From Subdoligranulum variabile (GTDB lineage: Bacteria > Bacillota > Clostridia > Oscillospirales > Ruminococcaceae), in assembly GCF_025152575.1 (NCBI RefSeq), contig NZ_CP102293.1:868001-932000 (forward strand): a stretch of 64,000 nucleotides of DNA, read 5' to 3'. The position numbers and the translations under genes are program-made. Below the pieces are notes generated by a model. It was not told the origin of the DNA. It did not search any database and saw nothing but the letters and a program-made list of their open reading frames with translations. The first letter of the stretch is position 1. Each line of letters starts with the position of its first letter. This document shows, in pieces, positions 28,455 to 45,535 of the stretch.

Positions 28455-28531
28455 TGCCCCTTAGCTCAGTCGGTTAGAGCACCTGACTGTTAATCAGGGT
28501 GTCCTCGGTTCAAGTCCGAGAGGGGCAGCCA
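28455..28531 (+). tRNA. tRNA-Asn (GTT)
   Basis: 77 bases including an encoded CCA. The acceptor stem TGCCCCT pairs with AGGGGCA, the D arm is AGCTCAGTCGGTTAGAGC, the anticodon loop CTGTTAA gives GTT, and the T arm GGTTCAAGTCC is standard. Its last 56 bases are repeated exactly at 35594 and 42969, marking it as the attachment site of the islands to its right. Confidence 0.97.
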
Positions 28532-28753: not shown

Positions 28754-28807
28754 GATATCTGACAGCTGCCCATTTTCAGGCGCAGCCATTGCCATTTGCG
28801 GGCGTTT

Positions 28808-29653
28808 TCATTCCTTGACGGCGCCTGCCGCAACCCCCGCTAAAATATGTCGCTGGAAGATCACATAGATGAGGATGGTGGGCAGCATGATGACGATGAT
28901 GCCCGCTGCCAGACTCTGCCAGGAACCCTGCTGGGCGTTGGCGTAGTCCATCAGGAAGGTGGTCAGGGTGCGCAGTTTGTTCTTGGGCATGTACAGGTAG
29001 GGAATGTACATGTCGTTGATGATGGTGATGGCCTTGATGATGACGACGGTGGCCGTCGCGGGCGACAGCAGCGGGAAGATGATGCGGCCGAACAGCCCGA
29101 AGTAGCTGCAGCCGTCCAGCAGGGCGCTCTCGTCCAGAGAAACGGGCAGCGTCGAGATGAACTGCCGGTAGATGTACAGCTGCATGAGGTCAGCGGCGAT
29201 GTAGATGACGATGGGGGCGCCCAGGGTGTTGTAGAGGCCCAGCCCGTTGATGATCTTGAAGCGGGCAATCTCGGTGACGAAGGTGGGCACCAGCATGCCG
29301 ATGAAGAACATGCTGACGATGATTTTTTTGCCCCGGAACTGGAATCGCTCGATGATGAAGGCGGTGACGGTGCCCAGCAGCACGTTGAAGACGATGCTGA
29401 CGACCAGGATGATGATGGTGTTCTTGAAGCCGATGAGCAGGTATTTGTTGTGGAAAACTTCGGCGTAGTTTTCCAAGGTGATGCGGTCGAGGGGCAGCGT
29501 CAGGGGCGAGGTATTGACCATATCGCCCTTGGTCTTGAGGGAGGCGAAGAAGGTCAGCAGGATGGGAGTGATGACAATAAGCACCATCCCGATGCAGATG
29601 AGCTGTTTGAGGATCTGGGCCAGCAGCTCGCGGCGTTTTCTTGATTCCAGCAT
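28808..29653 (-). CDS. CUT1-family sugar ABC transporter permease (MalG-like)
   Basis: 281 residues, six membrane segments. The EAA loop that docks the ATPase is visible as LDESALLDGCSYFGLFGRIIFPLLSP near residue 180. Pairs with the MalF-like permease whose gene ends one base before it. No ATPase gene is present, so a shared MsmX-type ATPase elsewhere is expected. Last gene of the island A operon, followed by a strong terminator. Confidence 0.92.
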   Translation of the reverse strand: MLESRKRRELLAQILKQLICIGMVLIVITPILLTFFASLKTKGDMVNTSPLTLPLDRITLENYAEVFHNKYLLIGFKNTIIILVVSIVFNVLLGTVTAFIIERFQFRGKKIIVSMFFIGMLVPTFVTEIARFKIINGLGLYNTLGAPIVIYIAADLMQLYIYRQFISTLPVSLDESALLDGCSYFGLFGRIIFPLLSPATATVVIIKAITIINDMYIPYLYMPKNKLRTLTTFLMDYANAQQGSWQSLAAGIIVIMLPTILIYVIFQRHILAGVAAGAVKE

Positions 29654-29654
29654 A

Positions 29655-30548
29655 TCAGTCCTTGTCCTCCTTCAGAATCAGTCCGTGGATGATCTTGTTC
29701 TGGATCAGATAGATCACCACGATCATGACCATGATGGCCACGGCCATCGTGGACGCCAGCCCGAAGTTGGAGAACTGGAAGGCGGTGTTGATGGTGTAGA
29801 GGGTGAAGGTGCTGGAGGCGTAGCCCGGACCGCCAGCGGTCATGACGAAGGGAATGTCGAAGACCTGCAGGGCGCCGCGGATGTTATCGAACAGCACGAA
29901 GTCCACCATCAGCATGATGGAGGGGATCTGGATGTGGCGGAACATCTGCCAAGTGTTGGCACCGTCGATGACGGCGGCCTCCTGGATGTCCTGGGACACC
30001 GACTGCAGCGCCGCCAGGAAGAGGATCACATGGTAGCCCGAGTACCGCCACAGCGACACGAAGGCCAGCACGAAGTTGACGATGGTGGGGTCGGACAGCC
30101 AGCTGCGGCTGAGCATGCCCAGGTGCAGCGCGTTGAGGATGCCGTCAAAGGCACCGTTGACCGGCGAGAAGAAGTAGGAGAAGGCGTAGGCGATGGCGAC
30201 GCCGTTGATGATGTAGGGCAGGAAGACCATCGTCTTGTAGAAGCCGGCGGCACGCAGTTTGGAGTTGAGCAGCACGGCAAAGGCCAGTTCCACTGGGATC
30301 ATGCACAGGTGGGCGAAGAAGTAGACGGCGTTGTTGCTCAGGGACTGCCACAGGTCGGGATTGTGGAACATGCTGATGTAGTTGTCCAGCTTGATGAAGT
30401 TGCTGGTGGGCGAAAGGCCGTCCCAGTCGGTAAAGCTCATGCGGATGAGGTCCAGCGCCGGCACCATGACGAAGCCGATCAGCAGCAGGGTGGGCACGAT
30501 CAGGCACACCCCGATGAAGAGCTGGCGCTGTTGTTTCAAGGTTTTCAT
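29655..30548 (-). CDS. CUT1-family sugar ABC transporter permease (MalF-like)
   Basis: 297 residues with six membrane segments and an EAA loop (IQEAAVIDGANTWQMFRHIQIP) near residue 190. It forms the heterodimeric channel with the MalG-like permease. The solute-binding gene lies upstream, separated by a 78-base gap containing a strong hairpin. Confidence 0.92.
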   Translation of the reverse strand: MKTLKQQRQLFIGVCLIVPTLLLIGFVMVPALDLIRMSFTDWDGLSPTSNFIKLDNYISMFHNPDLWQSLSNNAVYFFAHLCMIPVELAFAVLLNSKLRAAGFYKTMVFLPYIINGVAIAYAFSYFFSPVNGAFDGILNALHLGMLSRSWLSDPTIVNFVLAFVSLWRYSGYHVILFLAALQSVSQDIQEAAVIDGANTWQMFRHIQIPSIMLMVDFVLFDNIRGALQVFDIPFVMTAGGPGYASSTFTLYTINTAFQFSNFGLASTMAVAIMVMIVVIYLIQNKIIHGLILKEDKD

Positions 30549-30576
30549 TCGGTAATAACCCCCCTAGACAAACGAA

Positions 30577-30610
30577 GCGGGGGCCGCCTGGTGGATCAAG
30601 CGGCCCCCGC
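30577..30610 (-). promoter_or_regulatory. intercistronic hairpin between binding-protein and permease genes
   Basis: GCGGGGGCCGC pairs perfectly with GCGGCCCCCGC (11 bp) around a 12-base loop, without a T run. Such a hairpin typically protects the upstream mRNA and partly stops polymerase, giving more binding protein than permease; here that role is inferred. Confidence 0.65.
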
Positions 30611-30626
30611 GGGTGTTCCGTACAGA

Positions 30627-31997
30627 TTACTGGATGCCCAGCTTGGCGCGGGCTGCGGTCCACTTGGCGTCCAGATCGGCCAGCATGCTGTCCAGATCAA
30701 AGCCGTCGGTGAACATCTGCGCGCCCAGCTTCTTGTAGTCGAAGGTGGTCTCGTTCTGCAGGGCGGTGAAGTCATCGCCGCCGCCGTCGTACATCACCAT
30801 TTCGGCATCCGGCTGCAGGGCATCGGCCTCGGCCAGCACGGGGTCCTTCTCCTTGGGGAAGTTCTCCATCGAGGAAGCGCTGGAAACGTATGCGATGTAG
30901 CCGGGGTACCATTCTTCGCTGTAGAACCACTCCACGAAAGCCTTGGCCAGTTCGGGGTTCTTGCTGTGGGTGGTCACGCCCATGAAGCTGTCGCCCTGGA
31001 CCACATAGCGGAACGGCTCATCGGTGGATTCCCGGACGGGCAGGTAGAAGGTGCCCAGCTCGTCGGTGCTCTCGGCGCCGGCCTGGATGTTCTGCAGGCC
31101 CCAGTCACCCAGCGCGATGATGGCGGCCTTCTTCTGGGCGAAGAGGGTGGTCGCCTGGTCGTTGCCCAGGCCCAGGGGGTCCTTGCCGAACACACCGGAG
31201 GTGAACAGGTCGTACACGCGGTGGTAGGCGGTGTTGATGTCGGAGCCCTCGGCAAAAGGCGTGTCGGTCTTGGCCATGTCGTTCCAGTTCTGGCCGTTGC
31301 CGTTCACCAGGGCGGGCATGAATTCCATGTAGGGGTAGTCGGGCCATTCATCCTTGGCGCCCAGCGCGATGGCCATGAAGTCGGGGTCCTTGGCGCCGTA
31401 GTAGTCCTGCAGCGTCTTGGAGACGGTCTTCAGTTCCTCCCAGGTGGTGGGCACTTCCACGCCCGCCTCCTGGAACATGTCTTTCCAGTAGTAGACATAT
31501 TCATAGCCGGCGGTCATCGGCACGCCGAGGATCTTGCCGTCCAGGGCATAGCCGGCGGCCAGCGTGTTGTTCTTGGCGGCGTCCAGGTCGGACAGGTCCA
31601 GCAGGTAGTCCTGGAACCGGGACAGGGTGAAAGGCTTGTTGAACATGACGTCGGGCAGCTGGTTGGCGGAGGCGCGCATCTTCATGGCGTTCCAGTACTC
31701 GCTGTCGTCCTTGATCTTTTCCACTTCGATCTCAGCGTTGGGGTAGTGCTCCTGGAACTTGCCCACCATGTCGTTCTGGTCGATGTATTCCATCAGGTTG
31801 TTGTCCCAGATGGCAAAGACCAGTTCGCCGCTCAGGTCCTCATCGACGGTGGCTTGTGCCTCAGTGCCGGATGCGGTATCTCCGGTAGCCGCATCCCCGG
31901 CAGGCGCCGTGCTCGAGGCCCCGCTGCCGCCGCAGGCGGCCAGGGAAACCGCCAGCATGGACGCTGCCAGCGCAGCGCTGATTGCTTTCTTTCTCAT
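30627..31997 (-). CDS. CUT1-family extracellular sugar-binding lipoprotein
   Basis: 456 residues. Signal peptide with lipobox SLAAC (Cys23), Ser/Ala/Gly-rich linker, then the two-lobed solute-binding fold (ELVFAIWDNN, LPDVMFNKPFTLSRF, KKAAIIALGDWGLQNI). Start at 31997 is set by GGAGG and the signal sequence; longer frames have neither. It delivers an unknown sugar or oligosaccharide to the two permeases downstream. Regulated, by context, by the YesMN-like pair upstream. Confidence 0.9.
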   Translation of the reverse strand: MRKKAISAALAASMLAVSLAACGGSGASSTAPAGDAATGDTASGTEAQATVDEDLSGELVFAIWDNNLMEYIDQNDMVGKFQEHYPNAEIEVEKIKDDSEYWNAMKMRASANQLPDVMFNKPFTLSRFQDYLLDLSDLDAAKNNTLAAGYALDGKILGVPMTAGYEYVYYWKDMFQEAGVEVPTTWEELKTVSKTLQDYYGAKDPDFMAIALGAKDEWPDYPYMEFMPALVNGNGQNWNDMAKTDTPFAEGSDINTAYHRVYDLFTSGVFGKDPLGLGNDQATTLFAQKKAAIIALGDWGLQNIQAGAESTDELGTFYLPVRESTDEPFRYVVQGDSFMGVTTHSKNPELAKAFVEWFYSEEWYPGYIAYVSSASSMENFPKEKDPVLAEADALQPDAEMVMYDGGGDDFTALQNETTFDYKKLGAQMFTDGFDLDSMLADLDAKWTAARAKLGIQ

Positions 31998-32124
31998 TCT
32001 GTGTTCCTCCATTCCTGTTGATAGCTTCGGGCATCGCCTTCCGCGTGCCCGTTTCGTTGTACTTATTATACAGGGGAGGAGACCCGCCATTCCATGAAAA
32101 GCCGTTTGACTTCTTGCGGATTTT

Positions 32125-33603
32125 TCAGGTATTTTGGCCCTGCACCCGGTAGTCTTTGGGAGAAATGCCCAAGTTTTTCTTGAAAATGTGGGTAAAGTGC
32201 TCAATGCTGTTGTAGCCGGCACGGTCGCTGACCTGATAAATCTTCAGGTCGGTGCTGCGCAAAAGGTCCTGGGCATAGCGCAGCCGCAGCCCGTTGAGGT
32301 AACTGATAAAGGTGCACCCGCACCGCTTGGCGAACTGGGTGCTGAAATACTTCTCGCTCAGGCCCACCTGGTCGGCCACCGTTTTCAGGGTCAGGTCGTG
32401 GTCGGCAAAATGGTCCTCCAGATACTGGCAGGCCCGCTGGATGGGGTCGCCGCTGTCGCCGCGGCGGGGCAGACGTTCCCGCTCCCTCCGCAGCAGGCTG
32501 CGCAGCCAGACGCCACGCTCCCAGGCGGTGGGCAGGGCTTGCAGTTCTGCCTGACAGCCCGCGATGCCCTCGGTGGAAAGCCCGCACCGCCGCTGCATGG
32601 CTGCCATCCGTGCCAGCAGCGCCAGAATCAGCCGGGTATGCGCCTCGCCATCCAGGGATTCCAGTGTGCGAAAAAAGACATCCTTGGCCGTCAGATACCC
32701 CGCGTCGGACCCGGTACACAAGGCTTCCACCAGCGGTTCGCAGAGGGATTCCCGCTGGCGGACCTCCTCAGCCAACGCGCCCTGGCCGCCCTGGGTACAG
32801 ATAACCCCCGGCCCCTGCAGCACTGCCAGCTGCAGGATGTCGGCACAGAGAGCGCAGGCGTCATCCACAGCATTCTCGCTTACCATTTCGCTCACGGCGG
32901 CGGAAACGCTCAGGTTCATCATATCGCGCCAGACCGACTGGACCTGCCGCACCACCGAGAGCATTGTACCATGGTAGCGGGCCTTGTCCCGCACCTGCCA
33001 CAACAGTTCGTACTGCCCCGGTCCTGCGGAGCGCACGGTGGCCCGGCCCGCCACGCGGGGAATCTGGCGCACCAGTTCCAGCATGGGTTTGTCCAGCCGA
33101 TTTTTCAGGTCGCCGCCGAACCGGGCCGACAGCCCGGCCAGGCCGTCCACCGCAAACACCGCCACCCCGTAGTTGCCGGGGGCCAGGGCGCTGCCCCGGT
33201 CGGGGGCGGCCGCGGTGGTGCTGCCCGCAAACACCCCCTTGCGCAGGTCGGTGAGGGTCCGGGTCAGGCCGGGGGTGTCCAGGTCGCCCTTGAGCAGATA
33301 GTCGTGGGCGCCCAGGCGGAAGGCCTCCCGCACCAGCTCGTATTCGTCATAGCCGGAAAGCACCAGCGTCACCGGCAGGATGGACCCCGCCCGCAGCCGC
33401 CGGATCAGCCCCAGCCCGTCCAGCAGCGGCATCTTCATGTCGGTGATCAGCAGGTCCACCCTCTGGCGCTGCATCAGGTCCAGCGCCTGCAGGCCGTTGG
33501 TGCAGTCCCCCACCAGGGTGTAGCCCAGCGCCTCCCAGTCCACCATCGTGCGCAGGGCCGCCCGCAGCAGGGCGTCATCGTCAGCAATCAGTGTGCGGAT
33601 CAT
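32125..33603 (-). CDS. YesN-like AraC-family response regulator
   Basis: 492 residues. Receiver domain with DDD at 8-10 and phospho-acceptor Asp55 (LLITDMKMP); a long middle region of about 250 residues; and a C-terminal AraC domain with two helix-turn-helices (LKTVADQVGLSEKYFSTQFAK and IYQVSDRAGYNSIEHFTHIFKK). The start at 33603 follows AAGGAGGAGG and overlaps the kinase gene by 23 bases. Expected to activate the sugar operon directly downstream. Confidence 0.92.
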   Translation of the reverse strand: MIRTLIADDDALLRAALRTMVDWEALGYTLVGDCTNGLQALDLMQRQRVDLLITDMKMPLLDGLGLIRRLRAGSILPVTLVLSGYDEYELVREAFRLGAHDYLLKGDLDTPGLTRTLTDLRKGVFAGSTTAAAPDRGSALAPGNYGVAVFAVDGLAGLSARFGGDLKNRLDKPMLELVRQIPRVAGRATVRSAGPGQYELLWQVRDKARYHGTMLSVVRQVQSVWRDMMNLSVSAAVSEMVSENAVDDACALCADILQLAVLQGPGVICTQGGQGALAEEVRQRESLCEPLVEALCTGSDAGYLTAKDVFFRTLESLDGEAHTRLILALLARMAAMQRRCGLSTEGIAGCQAELQALPTAWERGVWLRSLLRRERERLPRRGDSGDPIQRACQYLEDHFADHDLTLKTVADQVGLSEKYFSTQFAKRCGCTFISYLNGLRLRYAQDLLRSTDLKIYQVSDRAGYNSIEHFTHIFKKNLGISPKDYRVQGQNT

Positions 33604-35437
33604 GAGTTTCCTCCTCCTTTCGGGGCAGCGGGGCCACAGCCTCCCAGGGCAGGGCCAGCCGCACACAGGTACCCCGGCCCGGCGTGCTGTCGATCTGCAG
33701 TCCCGCCGCACCGCCGAAATGCAGCCGCAGCCGGGCCAGTACGTTCTGGATACCGATGCTGCTGCCCGACTGTTCCCGCGGCAGGGTGTCGTGCAGGATC
33801 GCCTTCACAGTGGCCGCGTCCATGCCGCAGCCGTTGTCGGTGACTTCCAGCACCAGCGCGTCTGCCTCCCGCGCGGCGCGGATGACGAGCTGCCCCAGTT
33901 CCTCCCCCAGGTCCGCAAACCCGTGGTTGAGGGCATTCTCCACGATGGGCTGCAGCGTCAACCGAGGCAGGCGGCAGGCCCGACATTCGTCGGCCACCTC
34001 GTAGCGGACTTCAAAGCCGTCGGCGTAGCGGATGCGCATGATGTACAGGTAACTGTCCAGCATCTCCAGCTCTTCCCGCACGGTGTAGAAGCTCGTGCTG
34101 CTGCGGAAGGAGCAGGACACGATACTCGCCAGCGCCTGGGCCATCCGCCGGATGCCGTCGTAGCCCGACATCTGGGCCATGAACCGGATGGAATTCAGGG
34201 TGTTCACGATAAAATGGGGGTTGATCTGGCTTTGCAGGGCCTGGATCTCGGCCTGGTGCTTGCGTTTCTGGGCCTCCTCGTTGATGGCCAGCATGTTTTT
34301 CAGACTCAGTACCATCTGGTTAAAGGAATCTGTCAGCCGCCGCAGCTCCTGGTGTCCGGCGGGCTGCAGCTGTACGTCGAGGTCGTTGTCGGCCACCCGG
34401 TCCATCGCGACGGCCAGGGCCTGCACCGGCATGACGATGGCATCGAGGAAATAGCGGGAAAACAGATAGAAAAGCAGCAGCAGCCCGAACACCACCCCCG
34501 CCAGCAGAGCGCCGGTGGCGGTGATGCGGTTGAGGATGCGGGCCTCGTCCACAAAAGTGACGATGCGCCAGCCGGTGTAGGGAACTTCCCGCACGATGAA
34601 GATGTAGTTGCGGGAGGAGCCGTCCTCCTCCAGAACGGCCCGCTGGTTGAAGGTGCCGTCGGGCAGCCCGGCGCCGTTTTCCCCGAACCAGGCAAGCACC
34701 GGCTCCCGGCCCATATCACCGAACAGCACGCCGCCGCTCTCGTTCAGCAGCACGGTGGTGCCCATGTCGGGACTGGTGCGGGCGCGCAGCAGCACCTCGC
34801 TCACCTGGGAGTTGGTAAAGTAGGCCACCACGTCGATGCTGCCGCTGCGGTCGGTGCTGTAATCGGGGGCCATCGCGGTCACCAGGACCAGCTGGCGGCC
34901 CTTCTGGGTGTTGGCGGTCAGGTCGGTCTTGCTCGTGTCGTAGCCGCCGATGGTCACCCGGTTGGGGGTCTCCAGCGCGGCGCGGTACCAGCCCTCGGCG
35001 CGCATCTCGTCGTCTGGCAGGGTGATGGCGTCTTTCACCGATACCGCCCCGCCGCCTTTCATGAAAAATCGCCCGGCCAGAATGTTCTGCGACGGCACCA
35101 TCGCCGTGTTGAAGCTGCGCTCCAGCGCCTTGTTGGCCAGGTACTGCTGGCTACTCCCGGTGCTCTGGTAAACCTGGTTCACCACGTCGAGAAATTCGCC
35201 GTCGTTCACATAGACAAAGTGGGACAGCTGCAGCGAAGCCGACCGGATGTCGTTGTCCAGGGTGGTGGCCACCGTCTCCTGAAAGGCCGAGACGGTATCC
35301 ACGGTGGAACTGCGCATGACCCGATACAGAATGATGGCTGCCGCCACCGATACCAGGATCAGCGGTACGACCACCAGCAGGGAAAATGTGCGGTAAAAAA
35401 CTTTTTTCAGCGGATATCGGCTGGCACCCAGTTTCAC
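33581..35437 (-). CDS. YesM-like sensor histidine kinase
   Basis: 618 residues. Two membrane segments (about 20-40 and near 300) flank an extracytoplasmic sensor of dCache type; a HAMP-like linker follows, then the His-kinase-family box QINPHFIVNTLNSI and an ATPase domain with VENALNHG and DNGCGM. GTG at 35437 is chosen because AAGGAAGG lies nine bases upstream; the longer reading to 35590 would cross the promoter (TATACT at 35469-35474, minus strand) and run up to the repeat. First gene of the island A operon. Confidence 0.88.
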   Translation of the reverse strand: MKLGASRYPLKKVFYRTFSLLVVVPLILVSVAAAIILYRVMRSSTVDTVSAFQETVATTLDNDIRSASLQLSHFVYVNDGEFLDVVNQVYQSTGSSQQYLANKALERSFNTAMVPSQNILAGRFFMKGGGAVSVKDAITLPDDEMRAEGWYRAALETPNRVTIGGYDTSKTDLTANTQKGRQLVLVTAMAPDYSTDRSGSIDVVAYFTNSQVSEVLLRARTSPDMGTTVLLNESGGVLFGDMGREPVLAWFGENGAGLPDGTFNQRAVLEEDGSSRNYIFIVREVPYTGWRIVTFVDEARILNRITATGALLAGVVFGLLLLFYLFSRYFLDAIVMPVQALAVAMDRVADNDLDVQLQPAGHQELRRLTDSFNQMVLSLKNMLAINEEAQKRKHQAEIQALQSQINPHFIVNTLNSIRFMAQMSGYDGIRRMAQALASIVSCSFRSSTSFYTVREELEMLDSYLYIMRIRYADGFEVRYEVADECRACRLPRLTLQPIVENALNHGFADLGEELGQLVIRAAREADALVLEVTDNGCGMDAATVKAILHDTLPREQSGSSIGIQNVLARLRLHFGGAAGLQIDSTPGRGTCVRLALPWEAVAPLPRKEEETHDPHTDC

Positions 35438-35593
35438 AGCTCTCAGTCCTTCCTTTTTCTTGCACAACAGTATAACAGAGATATGGCTGCATGAAAAGAG
35501 CCCCTGCATCATGTCTTGCGGAGCAAAAACGACTGTTCCGCGTATGGTCGTTAAGTGCAAATTCATCCCGCAGCCCTCACCACAACACATGGC

Positions 35594-35692
35594 AGAGCAC
35601 CTGACTGTTAATCAGGGTGTCCTCGGTTCAAGTCCGAGAGGGGCAGCCACCAAGCGATAGAACTTTCACGTTCTATCGCTTTTTTATTTTGT
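35594..35692 (+). repeat. attachment-site direct repeat, copy 2 (tRNA-Asn 3' fragment plus terminator)
   Basis: 99 bases identical to 42969-43067; the first 68 match the intact tRNA gene. It contains the last 56 bases of tRNA-Asn with CCA (to 35649) and a terminator (AAGCGATAGAAC with GTTCTATCGCTT, T run). It has no 5' tRNA half, so it encodes no tRNA. Junction of islands A and B. Confidence 0.93.
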
Positions 35693-35720
35693 CTTATTCT
35701 AGATCCGTAAGATATAGTCT

Positions 35721-35762
35721 TAAAAATAGCATCAAGCGCCTGCCGAATGGCAGGCGCTTGAT
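35721..35762 (-). terminator. minus-strand terminator of the decayed gene
   Basis: 14-bp perfect stem ATCAAGCGCCTGCC and complement, GAAT loop; on the minus strand TTTTTA follows shortly after. It lies directly behind the stop codon of the fragment at 35765. Confidence 0.78.
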
Positions 35763-35764
35763 TG

Positions 35765-35932
35765 TTAATCAAAGATCTCCAGTCCTAATGTTCTAAATAA
35801 TGTAACCACGCAAAGGATGCCTTCTAAAATTTCATCTAAAATTTCAAACGATATTTCGCCTTTATTATTGAAATCAACAACATTAGTTAGATATAATATA
35901 TACGTATTTATATATGGATTGTATATAAAGCC
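35765..35932 (-). pseudogene. 5'-truncated or frameshifted small gene remnant
   Basis: A 55-codon open stretch reads GFIYNPYINTYILYL, then NVVDFNNKGEISFEIL and ILCVVTLFRTLGLEIFD before TAA. The sequence looks protein-like, alternates hydrophobic and acidic residues, and is followed at once by a good terminator, but it has no in-frame start. An AAGGAGG lies upstream at 35966-35972 on this strand and an out-of-frame ATG sits at the 5' edge of the open stretch, so a frameshift near there is likely. Family unknown. Confidence 0.45.
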
Positions 35933-36110: not shown

Positions 36111-38087
36111 ATGTTTGATTTAGCTATTCTTCACCTTTCGGATTTGCATATCGGTGGAGAAGGGAAATCAATATCGAAACCGCTTAATTCTCTATTACTT
36201 GATATTAAAACTCAAGTTCAGTCCATTCCCGACAAGAAACTCGCCATTGTTGTCACTGGCGACACTATCAATATTGGCGACCATCGTGCTTTAGAAAATG
36301 CTAAAACATTTTTCAGAAAATTAAAAGATACGTTGGGAAATAGAATTTGTGGACTATACATTGTTCCCGGAAACCATGACAAGACAAGAACTACAGAGAA
36401 TGAGTTCTTGATTGCCGCCTGCAGGAAATTATCCGATGAACAGCTCTCCCAAGAAAGTGTTAACAAAAAGGAGCATTTTGATCAAGCTTTTGAAAAAACC
36501 GTATGGCCAATTCTATATGATACATACAAAAAATCCGGATATGTTGATCTAATCCGCTACATTTATTCAGACCTTTTTAATGATATGAACTCTATTAGTA
36601 AGATTGCTGAAAACACTTATGGCGTTCACATTTTAGAGGTTGAAGATAAAAAGTATTGTTTTGTGATGCTTAATACTGCTTGGAGTTGTGCTGACGATCA
36701 TGATACGCGTCAATTGATCCTTGGACAATTTCAGTTAGCTAATATCATCAAACAGTTTCATAACTTAACAGACGATACAAAAATTGATATAACTTTTGTA
36801 TTAGGGCATCATCCGATCGAGTGCTTCAGCGGAAGTGAGCAAGACAAACTTTTTGCTCATATGATATCTTACACCGAAATGAATGCAAATATATATATGT
36901 GTGGACACACTCATGACAGAAACGTTATAAACTGGTCCAACAGTAGGCATGCTATACATACGCTTATGACTGGCTTTGGATGGCCCGAAAAGCCAAGTGA
37001 TAGGGTGCATGACCACTACTACTCGCTTTACTTATTTGATTTAAGCTCAAATTCTGTTGAAATCTATGTTCGTAGAACAAACGATGGAAGCAGTTTTATT
37101 CCAGACCTTAGCATTTACACAGGCCAAATCCGTTCAGGATCTGAGGCCGGAGATAAATTAGTTCGCCCTCTACGATTTGAAGAAGGTCAAGGCGCAATTC
37201 TCTTGAGCACCGCTAATGGGCTAGACTCAAAAACTATATATGTTTCGAATAATTGGTTTGATCATTACAAAGAGTTCCAGTGTAGGTTAAATGAAATCTC
37301 ATTTGGAATAGCTGAAAGCATGGACTCGTATAAAAGCGATTTATTTCAATCATTTCTCTCTGAACGAAATGATGTTGATTATGATGAGGACACACTAAAT
37401 TTAGGAAAATTCTTCATTGATTATCTAAATAACCCGGATATTTATGCCACTTTAGATGCAGAAAAGCAAAAGAAGATATCAAGTCTACTTAGTAATAATG
37501 AAGAAAAAATATTTGATAATTTCCAAGCCTTTTTTCAAAAACTTTGCCAAGAATTCCATGAGTGCCTAGTCGATCATATAAAGCCTGGTCAAATCGTACG
37601 TTTTCATTTTAGATATTTATCCGATAGACAATCTTATAACTACTCAACACTATGTTCTTCTTTCTCCGACGATGAATCTTGTTCCGATAATCATTTATCA
37701 TATGAACCAAGTGATATAAAGTACGGAGATCTTATCCTCGAAGCATTTCAATCAGAAAGTACCGGTTGTTTAATTTACACAAGTAATGAAGAAAAATGTC
37801 AAAAGAAGTTAAATAAAAAATGGAAGGACTTCATCACAGTTGTACCCAAGTTTGATAAAAACGTCTATGTAAAAAAAGTAAATCAACACACCAAAAAGCG
37901 CATGCCATTCATCACCTTTGGCGTAACAATAAATAGTTTCGATCATCAATGGCTACTACAATGCATGGATTTTTGTGGAATAGACAAGTATCTATCGCTT
38001 TGGATACAACGCTACTGCGAAGTTTTCAAATTAGATATTGATTCTTTTCTCAATTGGCTAAAAAAGCAAGACAAAATGGAGGCTTAA
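36111..38087 (+). CDS. calcineurin-like metallophosphoesterase with large C-terminal domain
   Basis: 658 residues, no signal peptide. Residues 1-330 carry all metal motifs of the calcineurin-like phosphoesterases: SDLHIG (Asp11, His13), GDTINIGD (Asp51), GNHD (87-90), GHHP (232-235) and GHTH (265-268). Such enzymes cleave phosphodiesters or monoesters in nucleotides (CpdA-like), nucleic acids (Mre11/SbcD-like) or proteins. Residues about 340-658 are a separate domain not recognised, possibly sensory (RFHFRYLSDRQSYN, GCLIYTSNEEKCQKK). First of four tightly spaced AT-rich genes; not part of any defence system I can name. Activity on a nucleotide signal or DNA end is conjecture. Confidence 0.85.
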   Translation: MFDLAILHLSDLHIGGEGKSISKPLNSLLLDIKTQVQSIPDKKLAIVVTGDTINIGDHRALENAKTFFRKLKDTLGNRICGLYIVPGNHDKTRTTENEFLIAACRKLSDEQLSQESVNKKEHFDQAFEKTVWPILYDTYKKSGYVDLIRYIYSDLFNDMNSISKIAENTYGVHILEVEDKKYCFVMLNTAWSCADDHDTRQLILGQFQLANIIKQFHNLTDDTKIDITFVLGHHPIECFSGSEQDKLFAHMISYTEMNANIYMCGHTHDRNVINWSNSRHAIHTLMTGFGWPEKPSDRVHDHYYSLYLFDLSSNSVEIYVRRTNDGSSFIPDLSIYTGQIRSGSEAGDKLVRPLRFEEGQGAILLSTANGLDSKTIYVSNNWFDHYKEFQCRLNEISFGIAESMDSYKSDLFQSFLSERNDVDYDEDTLNLGKFFIDYLNNPDIYATLDAEKQKKISSLLSNNEEKIFDNFQAFFQKLCQEFHECLVDHIKPGQIVRFHFRYLSDRQSYNYSTLCSSFSDDESCSDNHLSYEPSDIKYGDLILEAFQSESTGCLIYTSNEEKCQKKLNKKWKDFITVVPKFDKNVYVKKVNQHTKKRMPFITFGVTINSFDHQWLLQCMDFCGIDKYLSLWIQRYCEVFKLDIDSFLNWLKKQDKMEA

Positions 38088-38090
38088 CAA

Positions 38091-38432
38091 ATGTCATTGT
38101 CACTTATTAAGGAGGTACCTCACCAAGATTCCAAATTTAAAATTTCATATTTTGTAGAAAATAGTATGGAAAATCAACCGCATGACGTTGTCGGCGTAAG
38201 AACCAACTTGGTGTATTCTCAAATAGCCCGTACAGGTAGGGTGCGCAACAAAACTGCGGAACGCGATTTATTAATTAAGGCGTTAGATAATTCAAGTATA
38301 AAGATAACCATTGAAGGTCGAACCATAAAGAAAGACCCCCTTTACGTTTTCATGCCCGCCAAAGATCTAAAGTTATGTTTTGGCAAGCGTGCGGATAAAC
38401 TTCCCCGCTACGCCTTAATCAAAATAGATTAA
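38091..38432 (+). CDS. small protein of the AT-rich module, family unknown
   Basis: 113 residues beginning three bases after the phosphoesterase stop, with GGAGG upstream. Mixed alpha/beta pattern, basic (segments RTGRVRNKTAERDLLIKAL and CFGKRADKLPRYALIKID), no membrane segment. Size, charge and position suggest a partner or regulator of the phosphoesterase. No family recognised. Confidence 0.7.
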   Translation: MSLSLIKEVPHQDSKFKISYFVENSMENQPHDVVGVRTNLVYSQIARTGRVRNKTAERDLLIKALDNSSIKITIEGRTIKKDPLYVFMPAKDLKLCFGKRADKLPRYALIKID

Positions 38433-38542
38433 TTTTTCAGCTATGATATATCGCCACCTTGCACTGTACATGAAAAATTTGCCGTTACCCGTTATATGAT
38501 TCCCAACTTAAGTAGCAGCCTGATTAAATGAGGGTTTTCTAT

Positions 38543-40582
38543 ATGAATAATAGTTCTTTCTTTTGCGACGATAGAATTCCAAATATTATACAACTATCTT
38601 CTTTTTGTGAGAAACTCGAATCATTATCCATTACTTTAAAAGCACCTATCTATTTGCTTAGCAAAGCATTGGGCAGCGACACCGCTTATTCTTATTCTCA
38701 CGCAATAATTCTTCTCTTGCCCAAACATTACATCTTAGTTATTGATAGAAATACAGACTCCCAAAATTGTCATTCGAACGACTTTGAGGATTTCTTTGAA
38801 GATTTTATTGAAGATCTTGGATATTTATCTGAAAAATACGGATACCGTCAATGGCTTGGGCGTCCACGAGAGTGGAAAGGATACATTCATAAATGCTCTT
38901 TAAACGACATTAGCAACAATCTTGAAAACCTTATTTCTCAGGAGCAAGTACCCTTTATCGCAGAACGACGCGTCGAGCTTCTTATTTCTCTGCTCATCGG
39001 TAGCATTAATGATCCCGAAAAGGTTGGCGTTGAAACACCAAACACAATTCTTGATAAAGTCAAGAAAAAAATCGTTTTATTTGACGGTATGCAAAGTCGT
39101 TTTATATATGGCAAAGTATCAAAAAAACGTGTGACAATTCAGGGATTAGCTGGCACAGGAAAAACAGAACTCTTGCTGCATAAACTTCAAAAGCTATATA
39201 CCAAAAAAACAAATAGCAAAATTGCGTTTACTTGCTATAATAAAGTTCTTGCAAACGATATGCGAAACCGAATTCCCCAGTTTTTTGATTTCATGCGAGT
39301 TGAAAAACAGATTGAGTGGAATAAGCGCCTTTGGGTTTGCAGAAGTTGGGGGTCTGCTTCCGATTGTAACTCTGGCCTTTACAGCTTTATATGTAGTTAC
39401 TATAATCTTCCTTTTCATCGCTATAATGAGTTCACATCTTTTGATGCTGTTTGTCGAGAGGCCTTAGAAAGACTACAGCAAATTCCCAATTTTGAACCTT
39501 GTTTTGATTATATTCTAGTAGACGAAAGCCAAGATTTTTCAAGCGCCTTTTTTGACCTTTGTGAATATGTCGTAAAATTTCAAGTATATTTAGCTGGAGA
39601 TATATTTCAAAACATTTTTGATTCCGACTTTGGCAACAGTGTAAATTGTGACTATCTGCTAAACAAATGCTACAGAACCAACCCACACACCCTTATGTTT
39701 GCCCACGCCGTTGGCATGGGCCTGTATGAAAAGCCTGTTATTAGGTGGCTTGATGACGACGAATGGGAGGCCTGTGGTTACCAACTGCAGAGAACTCCTC
39801 CCACCGTTTCTCTTTCCCGTAGTCCGGTCCACAGATTTGGGGATACCGCAGAAGATAGTGCTGATAGTGTAGAAGTTATTGGCTGCACCAGAGAAACAAT
39901 GGTCGATCAAATTATTTCCACCATTGAGCGCATTTATGAACAAAATCCATCTGTGGAAGCAGATGACATTGCAGTTATTTTCACTTCTAATAATAAGCAA
40001 ATCTTTTCAATGGCAGACACGCTTGCCATCGAACTGGAGCGGCATTTTTCCATCGATGTCACACAAGGCCATGTAACAAAAAACAGAGAAAAAGGCAAAT
40101 TATATATTAGCAACATTAACAACGTTAAAGGTTTGGAATTTCCTTTTGTAATTTGTGTGCACGTTGGCCGAGTGAAAACAAGCATTTCTTCTAGGAATTC
40201 AATATATATGGCTCTAACGCGATCTTTCCTAACGTCTTACTTCATCGTAGATTCTTCGCTTAACGAATCTTTTCTTCACACATATGAAAACGCAGCAAAG
40301 GGCATCATTGAATCCGATTCAATTGTTGTTACAGAGCCTACCGCAGAAGAAAAAGCAATGTTGGAAGAGAACATTAGAATCGCAACAACGGGCAAAAAGA
40401 AATCGCTAGAAGACTTAATTAACGAGACATGCCTGTCCAGTCCTTTTGCGCCAAATATCACACCATTGTTACGCGATAAAATCAACAAAATCGTACCCAA
40501 TTTAATTGATGATGAAACAGAAGAAGAAATCATCACAAGCACAAATAAAGCAATCCAAATGCTTATGGAGAAGTACACATGA
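38543..40582 (+). CDS. UvrD/Rep-like superfamily 1 helicase with unique N-terminal domain
   Basis: 679 residues. Residues 1-190 form an unrecognised N-terminal domain. The SF1 core follows: Walker A GLAGTGKTEL (201-210), Walker B VDESQD (326-331), GDIFQNIF (352-359, motif III), KGLEFP (529-534, motif V) and YMALTRS (motif VI), with a short helical tail. Nucleic-acid unwinding or translocation is expected from the family. The ATG at 38543 is preferred over 38528 because GAGGG lies eight bases upstream. The 3' end overlaps the next gene by 4 bases (ATGA), so the two products are made together. SF1 helicases recur in anti-phage systems such as Gabija, but the partners here differ. Confidence 0.88.
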   Translation: MNNSSFFCDDRIPNIIQLSSFCEKLESLSITLKAPIYLLSKALGSDTAYSYSHAIILLLPKHYILVIDRNTDSQNCHSNDFEDFFEDFIEDLGYLSEKYGYRQWLGRPREWKGYIHKCSLNDISNNLENLISQEQVPFIAERRVELLISLLIGSINDPEKVGVETPNTILDKVKKKIVLFDGMQSRFIYGKVSKKRVTIQGLAGTGKTELLLHKLQKLYTKKTNSKIAFTCYNKVLANDMRNRIPQFFDFMRVEKQIEWNKRLWVCRSWGSASDCNSGLYSFICSYYNLPFHRYNEFTSFDAVCREALERLQQIPNFEPCFDYILVDESQDFSSAFFDLCEYVVKFQVYLAGDIFQNIFDSDFGNSVNCDYLLNKCYRTNPHTLMFAHAVGMGLYEKPVIRWLDDDEWEACGYQLQRTPPTVSLSRSPVHRFGDTAEDSADSVEVIGCTRETMVDQIISTIERIYEQNPSVEADDIAVIFTSNNKQIFSMADTLAIELERHFSIDVTQGHVTKNREKGKLYISNINNVKGLEFPFVICVHVGRVKTSISSRNSIYMALTRSFLTSYFIVDSSLNESFLHTYENAAKGIIESDSIVVTEPTAEEKAMLEENIRIATTGKKKSLEDLINETCLSSPFAPNITPLLRDKINKIVPNLIDDETEEEIITSTNKAIQMLMEKYT

Positions 40583-41229
40583 AATCGTACAAGATTTCAC
40601 TGAGAGAGAAAGAACTAAATTCCATTCGGAACAATTCCAGTGCTGTAAAATTAATATTTTCCGTTTGCTCTCATATTGCAAACCTTTCAATAGCCGACCT
40701 CTATTTTGATATCCCAACCAATCCTCTTCCGTATGTTGTTTTATATATTTCTGACAGCATGAATAGATTGATCTGGGAAAATGAAAACCGTCAATTACAC
40801 TCAATACACTTTCCTTTTTTCGTATCAGACAATGGTTCTTTTCTAAAGTTGCATTATCATGGTATTGAAATCGATAGTCAAGCTATTCAAGCGTTAACGC
40901 GTTTGTTTATCTCAGAAGATCTTCAGGTTTCGTTCGATGGTTTATTTGAAGAATTTTTAGAGACAACTAAAGAGTTTGACCTTTCTTCATTACGACAGCA
41001 AGAAATCTGGGTTTTATATCAATATTTATGCTCTTTTGAGATTGGTTACTTAAGATATGATTATGACCCAGAGCATGAAGATGGGCAACGACATCCACTA
41101 CATCATTTAGACATTAATTTTTCAAATGCATGCACTTATAAGATAGGATTAACTTCAAATATGGAAGTCGATACTTTTGTAGATCTATTAAACCTCGAAA
41201 CAGATTGTAAATATATTTCTCTTAATTAG
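40579..41229 (+). CDS. orphan protein coupled to the SF1 helicase
   Basis: 216 residues, start overlapping the helicase stop by 4 bases. No membrane segment or signal. The C-terminal half holds a His/Tyr-rich motif (RYDYDPEHEDGQRHPLHHLD) and a segment CTYKIGL; this weakly recalls DUF2290-type proteins found beside helicases, but I cannot confirm it. Translational coupling argues that it is a dedicated partner of the helicase. Confidence 0.68.
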   Translation: MKSYKISLREKELNSIRNNSSAVKLIFSVCSHIANLSIADLYFDIPTNPLPYVVLYISDSMNRLIWENENRQLHSIHFPFFVSDNGSFLKLHYHGIEIDSQAIQALTRLFISEDLQVSFDGLFEEFLETTKEFDLSSLRQQEIWVLYQYLCSFEIGYLRYDYDPEHEDGQRHPLHHLDINFSNACTYKIGLTSNMEVDTFVDLLNLETDCKYISLN

Positions 41230-41256: not shown

Positions 41257-42834
41257 ATGAGTCTACTTCGTGTTTGCTGCCTATACCGAGTTTCTACAAC
41301 GGCTCAAGCCGATCATAATGATATCCCCATGCAGCGAGAGGCGTGTCAGGAATATGCGCGTGAGCACGGGTTGTGGATCATCAAAGAATACCAGGAGCGC
41401 GGCATTTCGGCGTTCAAGACCCCAGCCGAAGATCGAGACGCCCTGCAGAAGCTGCGCGAGGACGCACTCGAGAAGCGTTTCGATATCCTGCTCGTCTTTA
41501 TGTTCGATAGGATCGGGCGTCGGAGTGATGAAACGCCTTTCGTTGTCGAATGGTTTATCAAGCACGGCATCCGCGTTATCAGTGTCAAAGAGGGCGAACA
41601 AATTCTGGACAGTCATGCAGACCGGCTGCTCAATTACATTCGCTACTGGCAAGGTGAAGGCGAATCCAAAAACACCTCCCTGCGCATCCAGACACGGCTT
41701 CGTCAGATGCACCAGGAAGGCTATTATACCGGTGGACCTGTTGCTTATGGATATCGCCTGGCCTACACCGGACGCCGAAACAAAAAGGGACAGCCTGTTC
41801 AGGATCTTCTGGTTTGCGACGAAGAAGCCGCCATTGTCAAAGAGATTTTTGCCCGGACTGTTTCTGAACAAATCGGTACCACCGCTCTTGCCAACGATCT
41901 GAACCAGCGAGGGCTGCGCACACGGGCAGGTGCCAAATTCCAATGTCGGACAATTAAGAGCATCCTGCAGAACCGCGCTTACCTTGGATACATAATAAAG
42001 CGGGACGTCGCCTCACCACATATTCCGATTTTGCAGATCATTGATGATGCCACTTTTGAAAAGGCAGACCAAATTCTTGCCAAGCGTTCTGTGGCTACAG
42101 TTCAACGGCGCTCGATACCAAGAAAGGGAAAGTCGGCACTCCTTTCCGGCATTCTCTTTTGCGGCACCTGTGACCATCGTCTTTCCACCAGCCGTCCGGC
42201 AGAAAACTCCCGGCGAAACAAAACTCAGTATGTCTGTCCTATCTGTCGGAAAACTCAGCTTACTGAGCGTGGACAATCCACCTATACAGCCGAAACCGTA
42301 GATTCTATGGTTCTGCGGCAGACCTCTACCCTGCTGGATCTGTTTACCGCACATTCAGAAGATTCTTTACGGAAAACCTTGGAGAAGAAGCGCAAAGTAG
42401 TAAGGCAGCGTTTACAGGAAGAAAAGGACCGCCTGGAATCGGCAAAGGCAGAACTCTCCAAGAGAGAAAACGAAGTGGTTCGCGTTCTGGATGGCAGAAG
42501 CAAATATACTGCCAAAGAACTGAGCGCTCTGATTCACGAACAGAATACAATTTGCAATCGCTTGTCCGGCTGGGTAGATCGGTTGAACGACCAAAATCAA
42601 CATCTGCAATACATTTCTCGAAACCTGTCTTTCCTGTACGCCACTGTCCTGAGCTGGAAACGTATATTACCCACTGCCGCAGAAGAGGAACAGCGCGAAA
42701 TCTTGCGGGAGCTCTACCAGCGGGTTGAGATCCAGCGAGGCTACGCTATAAACCTTAACCTCACATCAAACTATTCTTTCTTCCTGTCCTGCACCGGGAA
42801 AACCAAGAAGAGCGTCTGCAACGTTAAGCCGTAG
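41257..42834 (+). CDS. large serine recombinase (integrase) of island B
   Basis: 525 residues. Resolvase-type catalytic domain at the N terminus (LYRVST, nucleophile Ser13; MFDRIGRRSDE), the recombinase domain with RQMHQEGYYTGGPVAYGYR, a zinc ribbon (CGTCDHRL and CPICRK) near residue 310 and a C-terminal coiled coil, the full layout of large serine integrases. Composition is less AT-rich than the four genes before it. It ends 134 bases from the right repeat and should drive integration and excision of the element. No obvious directionality factor is nearby. Confidence 0.93.
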   Translation: MSLLRVCCLYRVSTTAQADHNDIPMQREACQEYAREHGLWIIKEYQERGISAFKTPAEDRDALQKLREDALEKRFDILLVFMFDRIGRRSDETPFVVEWFIKHGIRVISVKEGEQILDSHADRLLNYIRYWQGEGESKNTSLRIQTRLRQMHQEGYYTGGPVAYGYRLAYTGRRNKKGQPVQDLLVCDEEAAIVKEIFARTVSEQIGTTALANDLNQRGLRTRAGAKFQCRTIKSILQNRAYLGYIIKRDVASPHIPILQIIDDATFEKADQILAKRSVATVQRRSIPRKGKSALLSGILFCGTCDHRLSTSRPAENSRRNKTQYVCPICRKTQLTERGQSTYTAETVDSMVLRQTSTLLDLFTAHSEDSLRKTLEKKRKVVRQRLQEEKDRLESAKAELSKRENEVVRVLDGRSKYTAKELSALIHEQNTICNRLSGWVDRLNDQNQHLQYISRNLSFLYATVLSWKRILPTAAEEEQREILRELYQRVEIQRGYAINLNLTSNYSFFLSCTGKTKKSVCNVKP

Positions 42835-42968: not shown

Positions 42969-43067
42969 AGAGCACCTGACTGTTAATCAGGGTGTCCTCG
43001 GTTCAAGTCCGAGAGGGGCAGCCACCAAGCGATAGAACTTTCACGTTCTATCGCTTTTTTATTTTGT
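42969..43067 (+). repeat. attachment-site direct repeat, copy 3 (right end of island B)
   Basis: Identical over 99 bases to 35594-35692 and over the first 68 to the intact tRNA-Asn gene. Contains the last 56 bases of the tRNA with CCA (to 43024) and the AAGCGATAGAAC/GTTCTATCGCTT terminator. With two further bases (TT) on its left it matches copy 1 slightly longer than copy 2 does. Confidence 0.93.
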
Positions 43068-43105
43068 TTTGGGCCGGCAGGGCTTTTCCTAAATAAGCGG
43101 ATCAC

Positions 43106-43153: not shown

Positions 43154-44131
43154 TCAATCAGCCCAATGGGAATCCCGGAAGATGGCCCGGCCCACCCCGA
43201 TCAGGTCGGCGCAGCCTTCCTCCAAAAGTGCCTGAGCCTGGGCCAGGGTGGTGACCCCACCGGTCAGAAGAACCGGGATCTGCACCGCCTGCCTGGCGGC
43301 CCGGGACATATCCTGGAAATACCCTGGCTCCTGATGGCCCGGACGGACAAAGCCATTCATGCCGCCGGTGAGATGGAGCAGGTCTGTGCCGCTTTCCGCC
43401 AGAATCCGGCAGGCCGCCGTGGAATCTTCCAGCGTGCTGCCACCCTCCTGGTAATCGCATCCACCCAGCCGGACCGCCACCGGGAAATCCTCTCCTGCCG
43501 CTCGGCGCACCGCCTGCAACACCTCCCGAAGAAAGCGGGTCCGGTTTTCCACCGACTGCGGGCCATAGGCGTCAGAACGATGATTGGCCAGGGGTGAATA
43601 GAACTGATTCAGAAGATAGCCGTGGGCAGCGTGAATCTCTACCCCGTCGAATCCGGCCTCTCTGGCCCGCCGGGCAGCCTCGCCAAAGGCCTGCGCCGTC
43701 TCCTGAATCTGCCGGACCGTCATTTCGGCTGGAATTTCTTTTTGCTGCTTGGGGTGACAGATGGCACTGGGGCCAACCGGGGTCTGTCCAGTCACCTGGG
43801 AGGAGGCAGCTGTGCCGGCATGACTCAGCTGGGCAAAGATTCTGACGCCTTCCTGATGCACGCAGTCAGTCAGACGCCGCCAGCCCGGGACGGTTTCCTC
43901 CTCTGCCAGAGAAGTCTGCCCGGGATGGGCTTTGCCCTGCTGGCTGACATAGCTGTGCTCGGTGATGATGAGGCCAATTTTGCTGTACCGGGCCCGTTCC
44001 TGGTAATAGGCGCAGACCGCATCCGTGACGCCCCCGGTTTCGTCGGCTTTGGCGGTGGCCATGGGCGGCATCACCAGGCGGTTTTTCAAGACCAGATCAT
44101 GGATGGCAATGGGTTCAAACAGACGTGACAT
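43154..44131 (-). CDS. NADH:flavin oxidoreductase (old yellow enzyme family)
   Basis: 325-residue FMN-dependent TIM barrel, the length of the single-domain OYE group without the C-terminal NAD domain of 2,4-dienoyl-CoA reductases. Motifs: RLVMPPMATAKA near the N terminus, ARIFAQLSHAG-type strand (IFAQLSHAG), and HAAHGYLLNQFYSPLANHRSD with the substrate-binding His pair. Likely reduces an electrophilic enone or xenobiotic. It lies 30 bases after the MATE exporter gene and shares its MerR-type promoter. Confidence 0.9.
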   Translation of the reverse strand: MSRLFEPIAIHDLVLKNRLVMPPMATAKADETGGVTDAVCAYYQERARYSKIGLIITEHSYVSQQGKAHPGQTSLAEEETVPGWRRLTDCVHQEGVRIFAQLSHAGTAASSQVTGQTPVGPSAICHPKQQKEIPAEMTVRQIQETAQAFGEAARRAREAGFDGVEIHAAHGYLLNQFYSPLANHRSDAYGPQSVENRTRFLREVLQAVRRAAGEDFPVAVRLGGCDYQEGGSTLEDSTAACRILAESGTDLLHLTGGMNGFVRPGHQEPGYFQDMSRAARQAVQIPVLLTGGVTTLAQAQALLEEGCADLIGVGRAIFRDSHWAD

Positions 44132-44161
44132 AGAGAAATCCTTTCTTTGGGAATGGTCGCG

Positions 44162-45535
44162 TTACGGATGAGCGGGCCGGGGATCCAGCTTTCTCAGTTC
44201 CAGGAACCCCAGGGTCAAAGCCAGCACAAAGGCACAGGCATCTCCTACAGGGCCAGCCCACAGAGCGCCCTCCACCCCCAGGAAACGGGGCAAGATCACC
44301 AGTGCCGGCAGCAAAAACAACACCTGACGGGACAGCGATACCAGGGTAGCTTGCACCGGCTTGCCGATGGCCTGGAAAAAGACACCGGTGCACAGCTGGA
44401 ATCCATTCAGAGCGATCAGCAGGAGGAAAATTTTCAGACTTTTCACGGCAAATTCCCGATAAAGTTCTGATTCCGACCCGAAGATGCTGATAATGGTCTC
44501 CGGGAACAGCTGGAAAATGGCCGTGCCTAGCGCCATCACCGCTGTAGAGCAGCCCACGGCCAGAAAATAGGTTTTTCTGGCCCGGGCCATCTTCCCGGCC
44601 CCGTAATTGTAACCGATGATGGGTTGGGAACCCACGGCAATGCCGATGACAATACCGGTGATGATCTGGTTGATCTTCATGGTAATGCCGAGGGTGGTCA
44701 TGGGGATTTCCGAACCGTACCGGGAATCAGCACCGTATTTGACCAGCACATTGTTCATCACTGCAATGACAATGGTGGCGGCCAGCTGCAGGAAGAAGCT
44801 GGAAACGCCCAGACTGCACAGTTTCAGGCAGAGCTTTCCTTGTGGAATCAAGCATTTCCGGGTAAGGCGGATAGACCGGAACCTGCGCAAATAGACCACC
44901 GTCAGAATACTGGATACGATCTGGCCCAGCACCGTTGCGATGGCCGCGCCGGTCACCCCCATATGAAAGGCAAAGATAAAGATCGGGTCCAGAATGGTAT
45001 TCAGAATGGCTCCGCTGAGGGTGGCCATCATGGCATAGACCGGGCTGCCGTCCGCCCGTACCACCGAATTGAATCCCATGCTGAACATATAAAATGGGAA
45101 CCCCAGCACGATGACGGACCCGTACTCCAGCGCATAGGGCAGAATGGTCTCGGTGGCGCCGAAGAGGACACACAGCGGCTGCAGCCATACGAAAGAACCC
45201 ACCGTGAGGGCCACGCTCACGATTATGGTAAGAGTGAGGGCATTTCCCACTCCCTGCGCCGCATTTTTCAGTTCCTTCTGCCCGAGGCAAAGGCTGAAAT
45301 AGGCGGTGGCACCGTCCCCGATCATCAACCCCAGTGCCAGTGCTATGACGGTAATGGGCAAAATGACGTTGGTGGCACCATTGCCCAGATACCCCACCCC
45401 ACGACCGATAAAAATTTGATCCACGATATTATACAGAGTACTGACCACCATGGAAATGATGCTGGGGATTGCGAAAGTCCGCAGCAACCGTCCAATGGGA
45501 GCAGAGCCCAGCGATTGGCGCTCCGTCTTTTCCAT
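44162..45535 (-). CDS. MATE-family multidrug/sodium antiporter
   Basis: 457 residues with twelve membrane segments in two pseudo-repeats (LLRTFAIPSIISMVVSTLYN at the start; NYGAGKMARARKTYFLA at the start of the second part with its typical Gly/Tyr/Asn). Exports cationic drugs or metabolites using Na+ or H+. Start at 45535 follows AAGGAG. The promoter immediately upstream (45585-45615) is of the MerR-activated type. Confidence 0.92.
   Translation of the reverse strand: MEKTERQSLGSAPIGRLLRTFAIPSIISMVVSTLYNIVDQIFIGRGVGYLGNGATNVILPITVIALALGLMIGDGATAYFSLCLGQKELKNAAQGVGNALTLTIIVSVALTVGSFVWLQPLCVLFGATETILPYALEYGSVIVLGFPFYMFSMGFNSVVRADGSPVYAMMATLSGAILNTILDPIFIFAFHMGVTGAAIATVLGQIVSSILTVVYLRRFRSIRLTRKCLIPQGKLCLKLCSLGVSSFFLQLAATIVIAVMNNVLVKYGADSRYGSEIPMTTLGITMKINQIITGIVIGIAVGSQPIIGYNYGAGKMARARKTYFLAVGCSTAVMALGTAIFQLFPETIISIFGSESELYREFAVKSLKIFLLLIALNGFQLCTGVFFQAIGKPVQATLVSLSRQVLFLLPALVILPRFLGVEGALWAGPVGDACAFVLALTLGFLELRKLDPRPAHP

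Follow-up and report, generated by a model that had tools for sequence, protein, structure and literature searches.

Two candidate two-gene defence units as the cargo of a tRNA-Asn integrative element in Subdoligranulum variabile

The window analysed here, a stretch of 64,000 nucleotides (nt) of the Subdoligranulum variabile genome (NCBI RefSeq assembly GCF_025152575.1, contig NZ_CP102293.1, positions 868,001 to 932,000 of the forward strand), contains an integrative element associated with a tRNA-Asn gene, whose cargo consists of four genes. With high confidence we regard these as two separate pairs: pair A, which codes for a metallophosphoesterase (MPE) and a small partner protein, and pair B, which codes for a superfamily 1 (SF1) helicase and an STM2766-family partner. 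We consider it moderately probable that the island is a cargo slot with two independent two-gene defence units, in which pair A would be an infection-triggered nucleotide phosphodiesterase effector with a sensor of a non-STAND type, and pair B a helicase-based defence.

Results and discussion

Four genes that constitute two pairs

A sequence-only reading of the window had described the four genes as a single module on one strand, with a 3-base gap within the first pair and a 4-base overlap within the second. The coordinates agree: the MPE and small-protein genes are separated by 3 nt, and the helicase and partner genes overlap by 4 nt. The unusual base composition that it pointed out is likewise evident, with a GC content of 36.4% over positions 36111-41229 versus 62.2% for the window minus the element, and a minimum of 55.7% among 233 other windows of 5,119 nt taken at 200-nt steps. 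The helicase gene very likely starts at position 38543 rather than 38528, as suggested by a GAGG motif upstream of the ATG at 38543 and by four helicase relatives, which begin with MDN, MSN, MSS and MDN; with this start, about 110 nt lie between pair A and pair B. A promoter scan returned 21 matches versus 20.9 in shuffled sequences, and nothing reached the gathering score of an RNA family beyond the tRNA and its displaced right copy.

The single module did not withstand a co-occurrence analysis. In tblastn searches (E <= 1e-3) the helicase was absent from all nine MPE relatives that have 1.38 kb or more of downstream sequence, and the MPE and small gene were absent from 4 of 4 pair B loci, at which the small-protein profile also retrieved nothing better than E 3.8. 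Both families are rare in the genomes searched, which are samples. The MPE occurs in 3 of 197 genomes of the family, the window's included and one of them a weak partial match, and in 2 of 391 genomes of the class, again including the window's (E <= 1e-30). The helicase family exceeds its cut-off in 1 of the 197 family genomes (the window's; some weak match is seen in 70) and in 2 of the 391 class genomes, the window's included. No sampled genome other than the window's was found to contain both families. As they do not co-occur elsewhere in what was searched, their combination in the window is a single observed stacking rather than a conserved unit, and one four-gene system was rejected.

The phosphoesterase of pair A

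Separate profiles divide the MPE into a catalytic domain (approximately residues 1-345) and a C-terminal domain (approximately residues 345-658) that matches no assigned family. The residues D11, H13, D51, N88, H89, H234, H266 and H268 are conserved in 94 or 95 of the 95 rows of the alignment. Searches with the MPE recovered at least 434 proteins, and 12 of 56 genome loci (L001-L012) contain near-full-length relatives. Split profiles show that the N-terminal 345 residues recur in many architectures, and that the C-terminal 310 residues are confined to the MPE family within loci gathered mostly through N-terminal motifs.

The sequence-only reading had noted the lack of an assigned family for the C-terminal region, and this holds in both Pfam scans over 61 family members and searches of solved structures. 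Phosphoesterase was the only Pfam family to recur in these members, every other family being present in at most 3 of the 61 (among the matches listed, 25 of 46 families), and the C-terminal domain found chance-like matches only among solved structures. In viral contigs 30 stretches fit a pattern for this domain, none of which was confirmed. As a guess by eye, it may be GAF-like. The solved relatives of the MPE are SbcD/Mre11 and cyclic-nucleotide-type phosphohydrolases, with weak matches over the first 100 residues (best E 3.2e-6). The motif after Asp51 presumably departs from the nuclease-type pattern, and for this reason a nucleotide phosphodiester is favoured as the substrate.

The closest outside relatives of the N-terminal domain are proteins of about 1000 amino acids (aa). 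Using hhalign, the MPE aligns with a 1029-aa NB-ARC/TPR protein (L014) over 314 columns with a probability of 99.95% (E 1e-38). Among the 44 further loci, 8 of the 9 long relatives scanned contain an AAA/STAND-type match (NB-ARC, NACHT, nSTAND or AAA; E <= 0.001), which is over the curated cut-off in 7 of the 8 and below it in L022; L025 has no such match. These MPE-STAND proteins (NB-ARC/TPR or nSTAND4, about 1000 aa) have the full-length N-terminal phosphoesterase domain in common with the window MPE, in which their NTPase and repeat part is replaced by the C-terminal domain and the small partner. The domain also occurs at the C-terminal end in some loci (such as L040, L049 and L050), and is thus not always an N-terminal effector. 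Relatives with 25% identity are present in four viral contigs of IMG/VR (L057-L060); there was none among phage records, and plasmid records gave one match, with 25% identity over half the length.

The small partner of pair A

The small gene is situated directly behind the MPE gene in 7 of the 12 near-full-length relatives (L001-L005, L011 and L012), and is also present in L020, where the MPE is mostly missing; in L006 the sequence stops 156 nt past the MPE and is uninformative in this respect. The pairing is thus directly observed. The distant small genes were first chosen by position, and their membership of the family was therefore tested by leave-group-out profiles, searched against the 9,771 open frames of 184 loci. 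Profiles built without the group in question (L005-, L012- and L011/L020-like) recovered L005 at E 1.4e-16, L012 at 1.6e-10, L011 at 8.6e-14 and L020 at 4.4e-12, and all matches adjoin an MPE (or the L020 remnant), save one chance match at E 0.65. A profile from the window group and L001-L004 alone recovered L005 (3.1e-11) and L011 (3.9e-5), with a weak match to L020 (0.0026) and one to L012 that is not significant (0.059). The loci were gathered via the MPE or other genes, and this approach could miss small genes that occur with no MPE. The small partner has no match in Pfam or NCBIfam and no credible one among solved structures. In the viral contigs L057 and L058 an 86-aa gene overlaps the stop codon of the MPE relative; the small-protein profile does not recognise it.

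Relationship of pair A to known defence systems

The closest known systems for the MPE are DS-8 and DS-9 (DefensePredictor) and PDC-S60 of PADLOC. DS-8 and DS-9 possess a related metallophosphoesterase domain, the catalytic residues of which are kept in the window MPE. According to PMC13092281, changing phosphoesterase residues abolishes defence in both systems. In DS-8 the phosphoesterase is joined to a NACHT NTPase, and in DS-9 its partner is a HAD phosphatase, whereas the window MPE has a C-terminal domain outside assigned families and a small partner of 113 aa with no HAD match. The L014 protein with which the MPE aligns is itself DS-8-like.

Two other assignments were rejected. For Gabija the best GajB score was 27.7 bits and no match to GajA (an OLD-type nuclease) was found among five proteins, and for SbcCD/Mre11 the SbcD score was 26.7 of 77.65 bits, with no SbcC-type match in the five proteins. 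In open-licence literature on phosphoesterase defence, STAND phosphoesterases, STM2767/STM2766 and DUF2290, no description of pair A was found among the matches listed.

Pair B, a distant sister of a validated helicase system

The sequence-only reading had given the helicase an unknown N-terminal domain of 190 residues and could match the combination of enzymes to no named anti-phage system. Neither point is supported for the helicase half. The helicase scores 811.1 bits against NF053713 (STM2767; cut-off 550) over residues 9-673, and the partner 175.8 bits against NF053714 (STM2766; cut-off 70), and no difference from these families was found. Neither family has a phage function assigned by its NCBIfam name. 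The helicase had no match among phage records and matched 8 plasmid records, three of which (L172, L173 and L174) were examined together with one genome locus (L168). The helicase gene precedes the partner gene with a 4-nt overlap in the window, L168, L172 and L173, and with a 13-nt gap in L174; both the order and the 4-nt overlap of the window match Salmonella and Pantoea loci. The neighbouring genes include AbiQ/ToxN at one locus, AbiJ-NTD4 and PemK/MazF at another, a type I restriction subunit along with a recombinase at the third, and the fljA flagellar region at the fourth, on a Salmonella plasmid.

Helicase+DUF2290 (Rousset et al. 2022), which inhibits T7 according to PMC9122126, shares with pair B a homologous helicase core (27% identity over 398 positions, E 1.7e-26, in comparison with the G455 example) and the placement of the partner downstream. 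The window helicase differs in its N-terminal part. Against the PADLOC helicase model for this system it scores 116.1 bits in two stretches, the best over residues 173-351, and does not match the model over its full length, whereas G455, a true DUF2290 locus (L178), attains 569.7 bits over residues 35-713. The PADLOC partner model likewise gives 23.9 bits for the window and 100.7 for G455. Homology between the partners is weak: against DUF2290 of Pfam the window partner reaches 24.6 bits, just under the cut-off of 25, over residues 158-203 only, and hhalign, with a single sequence on one side, assigns the two partners a probability of only 9.6% (E 0.0034). By eye, the two kinds of partner have a similar R-x-D-x-D...HP-x-x-H stretch. 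Canonical membership was accordingly rejected on scores, and pair B is, by these models, a distant sister of the validated system and not a member of it.

The integrative element and its tRNA-Asn site

The four genes are the only cargo between a pair of 102-nt direct repeats, and a serine recombinase gene starts 27 nt after them (Table 1), as would be expected from the earlier claim that they sit alone as the cargo of an integrative element. The recombinase, the direct repeats and an empty site in a relative (G211) characterise the island as a serine-recombinase element that integrates at a tRNA gene, and its mobility is in this sense directly observed. A third copy of the repeat, at 82%, lies within the intact tRNA-Asn locus. 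In G211, a third species of the same genus, the tRNA-Asn is present, the right flank follows about 112 nt past the terminator and the element is absent; this genome, of which the assembly is 85% complete, also lacks the region preceding the element and the flank matching approximately 43225-44921. The Zn-ribbon of the recombinase scores slightly under its Pfam cut-off. Known elements in tRNA genes with a CcrB-type serine recombinase share the recombinase domains, direct repeats and tRNA target, but against the CcrB of SCCmec the window recombinase is far under the cut-off (88.7 of 900 bits).

Table 1. Features of the element, its cargo and its target site (window positions)
Feature	Positions	Strand	Basis
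Metallophosphoesterase (MPE), 658 aa, pair A	36111..38087	+	Pfam Metallophos 47.9 bits; 95-row alignment A3; split profiles
Small partner protein, 113 aa, pair A	38091..38432	+	Family found beside MPE in 8 other genome loci; leave-group-out profiles
SF1 (UvrD-like) helicase, STM2767 family, 684 aa, pair B	38528..40582, start probably 38543	+	NF053713 811.1 bits
STM2766-family helicase partner, distant DUF2290 relative, 216 aa, pair B	40579..41229	+	NF053714 175.8 bits; DUF2290 24.6 bits
Left repeat (attachment site, att), tRNA-Asn 3' part and terminator, 102 nt	35594..35695	+	Repeat finding; 101/102 identical to right copy
Right repeat (att)	42969..43070	+	Repeat finding; 101/102 identical to left copy
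Left element end, also left end of G221 sister element	35594..35772	.	83% over 180 nt, att included
Intact tRNA-Asn (GTT), target gene of the site	28455..28531	+	ARAGORN and Rfam
Serine recombinase of the element	41257..42834	+	Pfam Resolvase 78.5 bits, Recombinase 52.5 bits (both over cut-off)

The difference in cargo is directly seen in a sister species (G221), in which an element at the same tRNA gene has a recombinase that is 95% identical in protein sequence, with 94.7% DNA identity from window position 41263 on. Between the shared left end and the recombinase its cargo (L129:5900-10334) differs from that of the window. It comprises a distantly TrlF-like PHP-ATPase of 715 aa (74.2 bits against a cut-off of 350), a protein of 351 aa whose histidine-kinase-type ATPase domain scores 26.6 bits (cut-off 26.4), and two further proteins, of 112 and 174 aa. 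The G221 cargo is itself a candidate defence set. A recombinase at 94% or above is found in 4 of 35 genomes of the genus, the window genome included. In G220 the 351-aa gene (99.4%) remains along with the final part of the 112-aa gene, and in G199 the 112-aa gene together with PHP-ATPase residues 338-715 (99.5%) but not the 351-aa gene; in each case the contig ends there. The two kinds of cargo differ as one block, the limit of which falls among the first codons of the recombinase. The simplest reading of such a boundary is that the cargo block may have been exchanged, in either direction.

Several further features of the site and its recombinase were observed. In the G221 element an IS21-like gene pair, recognised by eye, separates the recombinase from the right repeat (L129:1876-4157), and the matches to the window that flank it overlap by 4 bp. 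The GC-rich region 28578-35593, between the intact tRNA-Asn and the left repeat, is absent in G211. It codes by eye for an ABC sugar transporter (two permeases and a binding protein) and a two-component system, has no match to the element's recombinase, and may represent earlier cargo of this site. The same genome contains another 3' fragment of tRNA-Asn (G000:C1:1597954-1598049; L148:7955-8050), at a place where no tRNA gene is called; it could be the scar of a second integration. The window's own genome also has a recombinase with 40% identity (L134:9715-11486) that stops 2 nt before a tRNA-Lys gene, and the distance from the end of recombinase cousins to a tRNA-Ala gene is 55 to 130 nt in L139-L141 and about 1.4 kb in L138.

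Functional interpretation and alternatives

The earlier reading thus stands in part: the genes are the cargo of a mobile island and defence is still the best guess for their role, but neither the single module nor the absence of a named family for the helicase half has been sustained. Defence is suggested by a phosphoesterase domain related to those of DS-8, DS-9 and the STAND proteins, by the kinship of pair B to a validated helicase system, and by the defence-like cargo in the sister species. Under the hypothesis of two defence units, an N-terminal phosphoesterase of the STAND/NLR type would have been joined to a different C-terminal domain and be co-produced with the small protein. The C-terminal domain and small protein would most likely keep the enzyme in an inactive state and serve to sense infection. 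Upon release, the MPE would hydrolyse a nucleotide phosphodiester or pyrophosphate, be it a signal, a cofactor or a nucleic-acid end, and phage growth would be stopped, probably by abortive infection. In pair B, the SF1 helicase and STM2766-type partner would work like Helicase+DUF2290, probably by engaging phage DNA intermediates.

Several points weigh against this picture. For both pairs, all activities, the trigger, the substrate, the sensing step, the outcome and the defence role are inferred, and the role of the MPE C-terminal domain as a sensor is a guess. Canonical DS-8 and DS-9 were rejected on scores far under the respective cut-offs (89.7 of 790 bits, with no NTPase match in the 658 aa, and 44.5 of 420 bits for the MPE). 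No small gene is recognised by the profiles in 4 of the 12 near-full-length relatives (L007-L010), and the partner is therefore either not universal or has diverged. Finally, the sole pair A neighbour scanned, a 1068-aa Schlafen AlbA_2 protein encoded upstream of an MPE/small-gene pair (L167:3882-7085), has no PADLOC match, and a defence neighbourhood for pair A is not established.

The alternative that survives best, unlikely as we think it, is that pair A functions chiefly as a toxin-antitoxin or addiction pair by which the element is kept in place, with the MPE as toxin and the small protein as antitoxin, and with defence secondary or absent. In its favour are the two-gene layout with overlapping or touching genes and the loci that retain an intact small gene next to a broken MPE gene, namely L004:4904-6926, with two overlapping frames, and L020:9750-10615, with a large internal loss and most of the MPE domain missing. 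Yet these cases are only two, one among the 12 near-full-length relatives plus L020; the MPE comes first and is large, with the small protein second; and a related domain functions in the single-protein defence system DS-8, according to PMC13092281.

More doubtful still is a counter-defence role, in which the phosphoesterase of pair A would destroy the cyclic nucleotide alarms of CBASS-like systems of the host so that the element can settle. The weak MPE relatives do include cyclic-nucleotide-type phosphohydrolases as well as SbcD, and the four viral contigs in IMG/VR carry relatives at 25% identity. Against this, the cargo in the sister species is more defence-like, and the domain is part of STAND-type proteins and, according to PMC13092281, required for the defence activity of DS-8. 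Least probable of all is that the phosphoesterase and helicase act together in one functional system, as the shared strand and AT-rich composition and the joint absence of the block from the sister element might suggest, given that the helicase is at 0 of 9 MPE relatives and the MPE at 0 of 4 pair B loci, that in the 391 class genomes each has a single further occurrence, the two being in different genomes, and that about 110 nt separate the pairs.

Beyond the hypothesis of two defence units, we would only tentatively propose that pair A represents an anti-phage system not yet described, with an NLR-like phosphoesterase effector that has been rewired to an NTPase-free sensor made up of the C-terminal domain and a fast-diverging small partner, and that the recombinase element serves as a specialised slot at which complete defence sets are exchanged, as far as the start codon of the recombinase.

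Conclusions

The substrate is not known even for the validated DS-8 and DS-9, according to PMC13092281. If the interpretation offered here is true, the trigger and substrate of pair A would reveal new signalling or depletion chemistry, and the phosphoesterase class of bacterial immunity would gain a two-gene member whose compact, NTPase-free form should make purification and assays easier. Pair B would extend the Helicase+DUF2290 theme to a named family without an assigned phage function. The element itself is a clean case, provided by nature, of defence-like cargo that differs between genomes at a single tRNA gene.

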